Source of the DNA: Streptomyces inusitatus
GTDB taxonomy: Bacteria > Actinomycetota > Actinomycetes > Streptomycetales > Streptomycetaceae
Direction of reading: 5' to 3'
DNA: 64,000 bases
Assembly: GCF_014651115.1 (NCBI RefSeq)
Contig: NZ_BMWG01000001.1
Span: forward strand, 310,001-374,000
A program made the position numbers and the translations under genes. Every line of letters begins with the position of its first letter. The first letter of the stretch is position 1. The notes under the pieces are model-generated. The model saw only the letters and a program-made list of their open reading frames with translations. It made no database searches and was not told the DNA's origin. Shown piece after piece: positions 16 through 1,747 of this stretch.

Positions 16-53
16 GCTTGAGCGATTTGGAACGACGGGGGAATCGCTCAAGC
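16..53. repeat. 12-bp perfect inverted repeat (possible terminator)
   Basis: GCTTGAGCGATT (16-27) and AATCGCTCAAGC (42-53) are perfect inverted arms around a 14-nt loop. The right arm covers the TGA stop of the leftward Rieske-like gene (48-50). It could be a terminator for that transcript or a protein-binding palindrome. There is no U-tract, so the role is uncertain. Confidence 0.55.
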
Positions 54-368
54 ACTGCGGGGGGTGGCGGTGGTGGTATCGGGCTCGACCATCTGGTGGT
101 CGCGCTGGTCCAGGTTGACGAAAATCATTCCGTAGCGGATCGCGCATCGGACGGGCTGCGGCGCGCCACGGGGCCTGCGAAGGCACCGATACGCTCGGAC
201 GTCCTCGTCCTCCTCGCGCGCCACGACGATCGGCTCGCCGAACAGAGTGACCATCAACGAGTCGCCACGGTGGGGGATTGCCGTGACGAGGTCGATGAAG
301 TGCCACCCCGAGCGGTATGCCGTAGCCATCTCACGCCGGAAGACCCGGTCGTCCGGAGGAACGGTCAT
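48..368 (-). CDS. Short degenerate Rieske-like protein
   Basis: This 106-residue protein has the outline of a Rieske domain. An LFGEPIVVAREED strand pair (about 43-55), a CLRRPRGAP segment where CxHRGA ligands normally sit, and YGMIFVNLD (about 79-87) match the N-terminal domain of Rieske oxygenases. The histidine ligands and the second CxxH box are absent, so it probably cannot hold a [2Fe-2S] cluster. The catalytic domain is also missing. Its ATG overlaps the TGA of the upstream peptide gene (ATGA, 365-368), implying translational coupling. It may be a remnant, or a binding or processing partner for the peptide. The Rieske assignment rests on motif resemblance only. Confidence 0.6.
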   Translation of the reverse strand: MTVPPDDRVFRREMATAYRSGWHFIDLVTAIPHRGDSLMVTLFGEPIVVAREEDEDVRAYRCLRRPRGAPQPVRCAIRYGMIFVNLDQRDHQMVEPDTTTATPRSA

Positions 369-637
369 GCTTCTGTGCCGTTGGTCGAAGGGACTCCCCA
401 GGAGGGCTCACCGGTCGTCGTGAAACCCCAGGAGGGCTCACCGTGTCCGACTGCGATCGTCTCCACGGGAGCGGACCCCCACGAAGGTTCACCACTGAGT
501 CCCCATGAAGGCTCACCCTGGGCCCCCGCCACCTTGTCGGCAGGAGAGCTACCCCAGGAGGGCTCACCGGAGGCTCCCACGCCGAGCGCGGCAGCCGCTA
601 TGGCAAGAGCACAAAGAGCACGTAGCGTCCTAGACAT
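365..637 (-). CDS. Secreted repeat peptide with five GEPSWG motifs
   Basis: This 90-residue product starts with a basic n-region and hydrophobic stretch (about 1-22, signal-peptide-like). GEPSWG motifs then begin near residues 24, 41, 49, 66 and 76, separated by variable spacers. The ATG at 635-637 is chosen for the strong GAGGTGG ribosome site 7-8 nt upstream and because the signal sequence begins there; longer in-frame extensions have neither. Repeated identical hexapeptides after a leader recall multi-core RiPP precursors or processed signalling peptides. It overlaps the next gene by 4 nt and diverges from a LuxR-type regulator that may control it. I know of no characterised family for it. 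Confidence 0.8.
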   Translation of the reverse strand: MSRTLRALCALAIAAAALGVGASGEPSWGSSPADKVAGAQGEPSWGLSGEPSWGSAPVETIAVGHGEPSWGFTTTGEPSWGVPSTNGTEA

Positions 638-763
638 GGGTGATCTCCACCTCTTTTGATCAATCCTCCTCCCCCGCGCATAAGACGATGTCTCACTCCG
701 AACGCTTGCACCAGCGACGGCAGGCATCATGTTCCTGTAATGCAGGAGCCTGAGGGGGTGCAT
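638..763. promoter_or_regulatory. Divergent intergenic control region
   Basis: These 126 nt separate the leftward repeat-peptide gene from the rightward LuxR-type regulator and must hold both promoters. A TTGATCAA palindrome (656-663) lies just upstream of the peptide ribosome site, and TAAGAC (681-686) is a possible rightward -10. Neither promoter is clear enough to assign. Confidence 0.35.
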
Positions 764-1747
764 ATGACGTCTAACGAGGGCGAATTCGGACACCCTCATG
801 CAGACGGCGAGCTGTGCGAGGCTGGGAAAAGTCTGTACATCACCGCTCTTCGTACCGGGCGAATCGCCCGGTCGGAGGCGGAACCCATGCCTTGCCTCTT
901 CGATCTCGCCCTGCTGCACCCGGATCCCGACGACGCGCAGTGGCTCCGTCCGGTGCCTCCGACCACGGCACTGACACAGCTGATACACCCCATTGAGCGG
1001 GAGATCCAAGAGCGAAGGCGACGTACTGTCGCTCTGACCGACGCTCTTGAGCCATTCATGGCGTTCACCGCTCAGAATTCCACCGCGCCCCAGGGTGTAA
1101 CCGTCCTGGAAGGTCTCAACCGCATCAACGCGACCCTCGACCAGGTCACCGCGGACTGCACGGAGGAACTGCTCACCGTCCAGCCGGGCAGCGGCCGGCA
1201 GCCGCACATCCTGGAGAAGGCGCTGCGCAGGGTGGAGCCGCTGATCGAGCGGGGCGTACGGATGCGGACGCTCTACCAGCACACCGCCAGGCACCATCCG
1301 GCGACGCTCGCCTATATGGAGCAGGTGGGGCCGTCCGGCGTGGAGGTGCGGACGCTGGAGGAGATAATCGACCGGCTGATCATCGTGGACCGCAGGGTCG
1401 CCTTCATCCCGGCGAGCAGCGACCGGCTGTCGGCGCTGGAGCTGCGGCACAAGGGGATCGTGGAGTATCTCGTCGGGGTCTTCGAGCAGTTCTGGCTGCA
1501 CGGGCTGCCCTGGGAGGAGCCGGTCTCCTACGGGCCGGATCTGGACGGCATCACCGGGGTGCAGCGTTCCATCGCGAAACTGCTGGTGGAGGGGCATGTG
1601 GACGAGGCGATCGCCCGGCGTCTCGGTATGAACGTCCGTACGTGCCGGGCCCATATCGCCAAGCTGGGGTCCTCGCTGGGCAGCGGCAGCCGTACTCAGT
1701 TGGGGTATCTGATCGCGCAGTCGAAGCTTTTGGAGCGCGACTCCTGA
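764..1747 (+). CDS. LuxR-type helix-turn-helix regulator
   Basis: A 327-residue regulator. The C-terminus (about 264-320; LVEGHVDEAIARRLGMNVRT then RAHI) is a LuxR/GerE-type HTH. The N-terminal 250 residues lack a receiver or Walker motif. A central stretch (LIERGVRMRTLYQHTARHHP, then RTLEEIIDRLIIVDRRVAFI) resembles the TrmB-like/PLD-like region of orphan Streptomyces LuxR proteins. The ATG at 764 is chosen because GAGGGGG lies 5-6 nt before it; an in-frame ATG at 740 and a TTG at 656 lack such a site. It diverges from the GEPSWG peptide gene and is a plausible regulator or sensor for it, which is inference from position. Confidence 0.8.
   Translation: MTSNEGEFGHPHADGELCEAGKSLYITALRTGRIARSEAEPMPCLFDLALLHPDPDDAQWLRPVPPTTALTQLIHPIEREIQERRRRTVALTDALEPFMAFTAQNSTAPQGVTVLEGLNRINATLDQVTADCTEELLTVQPGSGRQPHILEKALRRVEPLIERGVRMRTLYQHTARHHPATLAYMEQVGPSGVEVRTLEEIIDRLIIVDRRVAFIPASSDRLSALELRHKGIVEYLVGVFEQFWLHGLPWEEPVSYGPDLDGITGVQRSIAKLLVEGHVDEAIARRLGMNVRTCRAHIAKLGSSLGSGSRTQLGYLIAQSKLLERDS

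Follow-up and report, generated by a model that had tools for sequence, protein, structure and literature searches.

In a 64,000-nt stretch of the Streptomyces inusitatus genome (contig NZ_BMWG01000001.1, positions 310,001 to 374,000; referred to here as the window), three adjacent genes encode a small peptide with five GEPSWG repeats, a Rieske-like protein that lacks cluster ligands, and a divergently oriented LuxR-type regulator. We concluded, with a probability of roughly 0.78, that this triad forms a dedicated pheromone circuit in which an exported, species-specific pentapeptide is read by the regulator as its cytoplasmic receptor. The best reading of the signal from sequence comparison is PENTAPEPTIDE, which is EPSWG in the window strain and has the general form [D/E/N]-x-x-W-x. 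The conclusion is carried by the residue-level pairing of the pentapeptide with the regulator, by the homogeneity of the pentapeptide and the selection acting on it, and by an invariant element in the intergenic region.

Pairing of the pentapeptide with regulator residues

Covariation was scored by parsimony on trees of 218 distinct complete regulators, with binomial p-values that are rough. Regulator residues were counted from the codon at 761-763, one before the ATG, so that residue 137 is residue 136 from the ATG; position 1 of the peptide is the residue three before the Trp (W-3). On the 218-regulator tree residue 137 changed on 23 branches, 22 of which were among the 26 branches with a change at peptide position 2. 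Only 2.1 such co-changes were expected (p = 2e-22), and 0 of 200 rate-matched permutations reached 22. The pairs of position 2 and residue 137 were Pro-Leu (69/69), Ser-Met (62/62), Thr-Val (32/33), Ile-Val (28/28) and Val-Val (10/10), and Leu was found with Val in 14/16 and with Ala in 2/16. Broadly, small peptide residues appear to pair with large pocket residues, and vice versa. All 18 Ser/Thr switches on the full regulator tree matched Met/Val switches. When regulators at least 80% identical were compared in pairs, a different position-2 class went with a different residue 137 in 345/345 cases, and the same class with the same residue in 1004/1004. When the sensor domain was left out of the tree and the Rieske-like protein added, residue 137 still scored 16/23 (p = 4e-10) and residue 154 scored 17/21 (p = 2e-9). 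Two additional loci that do not belong to the main set, and whose precursors end in DPAWD and DPTWG, have Leu at residue 137, as the code predicts.

Two further contacts were suggested by the same analysis. Position 3 covaried with residue 154 (p = 2e-5; Thr-Gly 34/35, His-Gly 6/6) and the residue after the Trp (W+1) with residue 150 (p = 1e-4). The best p-values at other offsets were 0.003 (W+2), 0.005 (W-4), 0.007 (W-5) and 0.016 (W+3), which, together with that at W-3, are at about chance level for 272 columns. The covarying residues all belong to a single strand-loop-helix of the predicted structure (strand at 136-141 and helix at 148-163 in the model). The covariation strongly supports the view that the sensor domain of the regulator reads the peptide, with residue 137 as the probable specificity residue for position 2. 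The Rieske-like protein was rejected as a specificity determinant of the peptide, as none of its columns covaried with the peptide below p = 0.025.

Precursor, intergenic element and partner proteins

The window precursor begins with MSRTLRALCALAIAAAALGVGAS, a basic and hydrophobic, signal-peptide-like N-terminus, continues with the five GEPSWG units and ends in STNGTEA at the stop codon. The earlier note on this DNA, made from the sequence alone, had described such a signal-bearing 90-residue peptide, and the open reading frame (ORF) reads as claimed. Three distinct synonymous spellings of the identical residues occur among the five 17-base units, and a degenerate DNA pattern of the unit has seven genomic matches, five of them in the precursor and two elsewhere that would read GEPCWG and GEPWWG; the repeats are therefore not due to chance. 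The motif itself had been drawn too narrowly in the earlier note. Over 257 loci the general unit is a pentapeptide, [D/E/N]-x-x-W-x, present in 1-12 copies per precursor, and the GEPSWG version is confined to one clade plus one distant strain; GEPSWG was thus rejected as a motif of its own. The distant strain (L038) carries twelve GEPSWG units, the highest copy number; its regulator is distant (61% identical), yet has Leu at residue 137. Among named species, EPSWG was found in S. jumonjinensis, EPSWE in S. zaomyceticus, DPGWH in S. noursei, DLGWD in S. bungoensis, and both DPIWQ and DPIWE in S. filamentosus.

The majority tetrapeptides are of 38 kinds among the loci, and 182 of 198 multi-copy precursors contain a single kind, the two middle residues being near-uniform inside one precursor and variable between species. 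Identity between units inside one precursor was 0.99, 0.98, 0.96, 1.0 and 0.80 across the core positions W-3 to W+1 and did not exceed 0.50 elsewhere; between precursors it was 0.23 at W-2, 0.25 at W-1 and 0.11 at W+1. Synonymous to nonsynonymous codon differences inside precursors were 187:9 at W-3, 469:7 at W-2 and 525:27 at W-1; at W+1 both kinds occurred (244:378), and in the flanks nonsynonymous differences prevailed (e.g., 148:872 at W-8). Since the codons of the units differ synonymously, selection at the protein level, not DNA copying, keeps the units alike, and gene conversion at the DNA level was rejected as the cause of the homogeneity. The 226 distinct precursors end exactly at W+1 in 33 cases and at W in none, and 41 of them have an AxA-like site directly before the first core. 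The N-termini are, by sequence, hydrophobic enough for the precursor to stay membrane-bound. Loci L245 and L248 have a single DTHW core straight after a signal-peptidase-like site and no second copy, and the DPAWD and DPTWG loci (L331 and L341) belong to a divergent lineage with a single C-terminal pentapeptide.

The region between the precursor and the regulator contains the 14-mer CAGGAACATGATGC, a putative operator. Its 11-bp part GAACATGATGC is invariant in 218/218 intergenic regions, and in 162 of these it sits inside TCCTG-N5/6-CAGGAACATGATG (N5 in 47, N6 in 115). The overlapping dyad in the window lies 16 bp before the regulator ATG and 95 bp upstream of the precursor ATG. The 14-mer was found as one copy in 42 of 61 genomes and never as two, and a reversed control gave no match. 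A regulon built on exact operator copies was therefore rejected, degenerate copies not having been searched. The element is consistent with local autoregulation, in which the main target would be the precursor/Rieske-like operon.

The AlphaFold2 model of the regulator was fair (predicted local distance difference test score, pLDDT, 81.9; predicted template-modelling score 0.50). Foldseek matched it to TrmBL2 (E 2e-13), to the PLD-family nuclease Nuc (1byr, E 4e-8) and to the TrmB sugar-binding domain 2f5t (E 3e-6), so that a PLD-like sensor domain as in TrmB-like regulators is indicated by the predicted model. The N-terminal part gave a long TrmBL2 alignment in the fold search, yet no Pfam TrmB match. 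At the C-terminus, a GerE helix-turn-helix (HTH) was detected by Pfam in 74 of 77 regulator relatives at E <= 0.01 (best 8.5e-7), in keeping with the divergent LuxR-type regulator of the earlier note; the window regulator itself scores 17.5 bits, under the curated cut-off of 23.5. Neither a tetratricopeptide repeat (TPR) nor an autoinducer-binding domain was among the Pfam families of the 77 members.

The Rieske-like ORF aligns with the N-terminal portion of the alpha subunits of ring-hydroxylating dioxygenases. A profile built from 29 relatives matched phthalate and naphthalene dioxygenases among PDB sequences at E 7e-5 to 4e-4 (naphthalene dioxygenase 1eg9, E 4e-4). In this alignment the Cys-x-His pair is replaced and the Cys-x2-His part is missing, and the ligand-site region is alike in all 29 members; the protein was rejected as a Rieske enzyme because the two Cys and two His ligands of the [2Fe-2S] cluster are not present. 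The loss of ligands and the ATGA by which the precursor stop and the Rieske-like start are joined had both been read from the window before and hold. Among the 29 relatives 59 columns are invariant, and the C-terminal TPRSA is found in 29/29 aligned relatives and at 252/257 loci; this end could be a recognition tail. In L331 and L341 the protein is 41-43% identical to that of the window and ends in TPHCA, not TPRSA. A fold search with the predicted structure gave nothing at E below 0.001. We regard the Rieske-like protein as a candidate for the conserved output of the switch.

Table 1. Positions of the triad, the repeat units, the intergenic element and the covarying regulator codons in the window.
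Feature	Position	Strand	Remark
Cluster-less Rieske-like protein, candidate output of the switch	48..368	-	106 amino acids; overlaps the precursor by ATGA
Precursor gene, putative pheromone	365..637	-	90 amino acids; signal-peptide-like N-terminus, then five GEPSWG
Repeat unit 5, GEPSWG	395..412	-	
Repeat unit 4, GEPSWG	425..442	-	
Repeat unit 3, GEPSWG	476..493	-	
Repeat unit 2, GEPSWG	500..517	-	
Repeat unit 1, GEPSWG	551..568	-	predicted mature signal EPSWG
Putative operator 5'-CAGGAACATGATGC-3'	724..737	-	contains the 11-bp GAACATGATGC
Dyad TCCTG-N5-CAGGA	733..747		overlaps the operator
Regulator, putative receptor	764..1747	+	327 amino acids; TrmB-like N-terminal part, PLD/TrmB-fold sensor domain, C-terminal LuxR/GerE HTH
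Codon of residue 137 (Leu), probable specificity residue	1169..1171	+	tracks peptide position 2
Codon of residue 146 (Arg)	1196..1198	+	weak covariation with peptide position 3
Codon of residue 150 (Ile)	1208..1210	+	covaries with W+1
Codon of residue 154 (Ala)	1220..1222	+	covaries with peptide position 3

Distribution and genomic setting

Loci were entered into the comparison by peptide similarity (a precursor similarity search found relatives in 27 of 295 Streptomyces genomes) or by similarity of the Rieske-like protein to that of the window strain (80 named loci); further loci came from Rieske matches in genome searches, taking the better-scoring among the matches listed. In total 257 loci were extracted, which make 229 non-redundant sets, since some genomes occur twice; without L308 there are 226 distinct precursors. 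The divergent regulator was found at 257/257 loci, and so was a short signal-bearing ORF with [D/E/N]-x-x-W whose stop lies at most 8 bases from the Rieske-like start (256 by script, and L308, with nine cores, by hand). The peptide-regulator pair, on whose conservation across Streptomyces the earlier note had staked its proposal, is thus kept genus-wide. A four-base overlap of precursor and Rieske-like gene (ATGA or GTGA) was present at 158/257 loci as picked. Matches to the Rieske-like protein were obtained in 254 of the 295 genomes, six of them weak (E 5e-6 to 6e-4) and perhaps ordinary Rieske proteins. In 20 listed genomes of the 41 that are Rieske-negative, no regulator match was better than 1e-54, as judged by eye, and the genes therefore appear to be gained or lost together. 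A profile at E <= 1e-12 gave matches in 31/394 genomes and 1/137 genera of the class, and in 51/200 genomes and 1/17 genera of the family, all in the genus of the window.

The triad is flanked by heat-shock genes. In the window strain clpB lies to the left of the window, and hspR, dnaJ, grpE and dnaK lie to the right of the regulator, all scoring above their NCBIfam cut-offs; none of the three triad proteins reached a curated family cut-off. Only the precursor, the Rieske-like gene and the regulator were seen between clpB and hspR in this strain; no transporter gene and no RiPP (ribosomally synthesized and post-translationally modified peptide) modifying enzyme was seen in that interval, the rest of the genome not having been searched for such enzymes. 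Among the loci with long flanks clpB is beside the triad in 107/107, and hspR was found in 88 of the 107, the flank of the other 19 being possibly too short.

Paralogues of the regulator occur both nearby and at a distance. Up to four TrmB-LuxR paralogues are lined up next to the cognate regulator, with one in the opposite orientation (L153, L154, L165 and L058), and two further genomes (G794 and G292) carry such rows. Neighbouring paralogues were rejected as receptors of the same peptide, as they do not follow the code. Among 14 distant TrmB-LuxR paralogues (38-50% identical; loci L377-L390, e.g., L378 3446-3700 and L390 2241-2080), eight are accompanied by a short, divergently oriented ORF that bears a signal and has a [D/E/N]xxW core close to its end, such as GDPAWG or GDSAWG before the stop codon. 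For comparison, 4000 random windows taken from the window and from these loci contained such an ORF in 137 cases (binomial 5e-9). Other genera of the family account for 12 of the 14 paralogues and for 7 of the 8 with an ORF, which suggests a larger family of putative pheromone receptors in Streptomycetaceae. Beside the window genome's own distant paralogues no small peptide was accepted; two of these had no usable match and one no residue-137 alignment.

Proposed circuit, alternatives and related systems

We infer the following circuit. The signal peptide would export the precursor, and cutting would yield copies of the pentapeptide (EPSWG in the window strain), which would re-enter the cell, probably via an oligopeptide permease, and bind directly to the divergent LuxR-type regulator at its TrmB/PLD-fold sensor domain. 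There, position 2 would pack on residue 137, position 3 on residue 154 and residue 146, and W+1 on residue 150. The regulator would act at the invariant intergenic element, most simply by activating the precursor/Rieske-like operon (positive feedback), and would limit its own gene. The conserved output may be the Rieske-like protein, which derives from a dioxygenase domain and no longer has the iron-sulphur site.

Several observations weigh against this circuit or the code on which it leans. The lone Thr exception (L276) has Leu at residue 137. Regulator pairs of 70-80% identity agree less (different-different 1742/2058, same-same 3124/3216), the first figure to be read with the fact that the Thr and Ile/Leu/Val classes share Val at residue 137. 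On the sensor-free tree 7 of the 23 residue-137 changes are off the branches of peptide change, and just 13 of 17 Ser/Thr switches have their Met/Val partner on the same branch. The link of position 3 to residue 146 is weak (p = 0.003; His with Phe/Tyr 6/6), and so is the partner of position 1 (best p 0.001, with six changes only). The 85 neighbouring regulator paralogues are off-code (Ser-Met 1/34, Pro-Leu 1/7, Thr-Val 3/17), and of the six distant paralogues whose motif has Pro, Ser or Thr, three fit the code and three do not; the pockets there therefore differ. Because ORFs were picked for basic, hydrophobic N-termini and with a preference for Trp, these two features are not independent evidence, whereas the remaining features of the precursors are. 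The Rieske-like gene is absent from 41/295 Streptomyces genomes, and the AlphaFold2 model of its product was poor (pLDDT 58.6). With a single exact operator per genome, a wider regulon was not seen.

Three other explanations were considered. In the first, which we think unlikely, the precursor stays in the cell or its membrane, and the regulator reads the repeats as a gauge of precursor synthesis or secretion stress. The regulator is taken as cytoplasmic because it has a DNA-binding domain; the clpB-hspR setting of the locus and the lack of a transporter gene in that interval of the window strain also favour such intracellular allostery, and the hydrophobic N-termini could hold the precursor in the membrane. 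Against it, the middle residues have diversified species by species, which is the pattern of signals exchanged between cells, and 41 of 226 precursors place the first core right behind a signal-peptidase-like site, while 33 end at the core. The second explanation is quite improbable: the locus would make a RiPP or another secreted bioactive peptide, such as an antibiotic or surfactant, and the regulator would sense this product for feedback or immunity. The earlier note had likened the arrangement both to a multi-copy signalling peptide with a dedicated regulator and to a RiPP precursor. The former half is strongly supported by the single-residue coevolution. For the latter speak the multi-core leader-core layout, the nearly invariant acidic residue and Trp, and the overlapping gene of an oxygenase-derived fold; yet the RiPP half gained no support, as no modifying enzyme or transporter was seen in the locus and the Rieske-like protein has neither cluster ligands nor covariation with the core, and one conserved genus-wide position in place of a sporadic one and the residue-level pairing with a transcription factor also speak against it. 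Hardly credible is a decoy or structural secreted repeat protein whose pairing is a by-product of vertical inheritance, since, even with precursor and regulator co-inherited and the motif clade-structured (60 changes vs about 175 in shuffles), the regulator tree shows the one-residue pairing anew in each of 18 Ser/Thr switches, the pairing beats 200/200 permutations that keep branch-rate classes, and for position 2 no other regulator column did better than p = 0.003.

The genus Streptomyces is a major source of antibiotics, and the best known of the signals that its members make themselves are small lactones. If the pentapeptide circuit holds, the locus is a candidate for a genus-wide signal with a predicted mature form per species and a one-residue specificity code, and pentapeptides made synthetically might be used to switch development, or antibiotic clusters that are silent, in individual strains. 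To our knowledge no gene has been established for the peptide signal imported by BldK. In S. coelicolor hspR is, we assume, SCO3668. The clpB gene of that species is given as SCO3661 in the relevant passage of PMC2687793, and SCO3665 (327 amino acids) and SCO3666 (394 amino acids) are listed as LuxR regulators in PMC3282765. A transposon study names SCO3664 ('regulator') among the insertion targets in mutants with >50-fold actinorhodin; according to its text 12 of 16 mutants were complemented, the SCO3664 mutant not necessarily among them (PMC6585502). By gene order SCO3664 is a candidate for the S. coelicolor receptor, with SCO3665 as the alternative. At somewhat less than even odds, Streptomyces, and through the paralogues other Streptomycetaceae, may use a combinatorial pentapeptide language, with a new TrmB/PLD-LuxR class of receptors, a near one-to-one residue code and a circuit gating antibiotic production; in S. 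coelicolor the locus, which would lie between SCO3661 and hspR and take in SCO3664, might then even be the source of the BldK-imported peptide. As the earlier note had said of the motif, no description of such a peptide-regulator system was found in the open-access literature searched.

Parts of the system resemble known ones. The Rieske-like protein aligns through its N-terminal half with dioxygenase alpha subunits, but is only about 105 amino acids long, has lost the cluster pocket and has no catalytic domain. The regulator model matches archaeal TrmB/TrmBL regulators (TrmBL2 and the sugar-binding domain 2f5t), but it has in addition a LuxR HTH at its C-terminus, and its partner is a peptide, whereas TrmB binds sugar according to the title of 2f5t. 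A GerE-type C-terminal HTH is shared with the LuxR/LuxI system of acyl-homoserine-lactone quorum sensing, which differs in that no autoinducer-binding domain was found here among the 77 members and that the predicted signal is ribosomal. Gamma-butyrolactone signalling in Streptomyces is likewise genus-wide with species-specific autoregulators, but here the signal would be a peptide and the receptor belongs to another family. The oligopeptide permease BldK of S. coelicolor imports a short 655-Da peptide that is presumed to signal aerial growth (PMC9640686); the likeness lies in a short imported peptide, the passages of that source do not give its sequence, and that the locus supplies this peptide is a guess.

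The closest parallel is with the cytoplasmic peptide receptors of the RRNPP/Rgg group in Firmicutes and their pheromones Phr, PapR, SHP and XIP. Those systems combine a small signal-bearing precursor, a short core that is sometimes repeated or C-terminal, an adjacent cognate regulator and species-specific pairs; in the window, too, a small precursor with a short core lies beside its putative receptor, with export presumed. They differ in that the receptor here has a TrmB/PLD fold and a LuxR HTH instead of TPR, and in that the present system is actinobacterial, with the core [D/E/N]xxWx and an overlapping Rieske-like partner. We concluded that the system would work like import-type peptide quorum sensing, provided that export and import take place as proposed, and that it stands outside RRNPP because its receptor fold is a different one.

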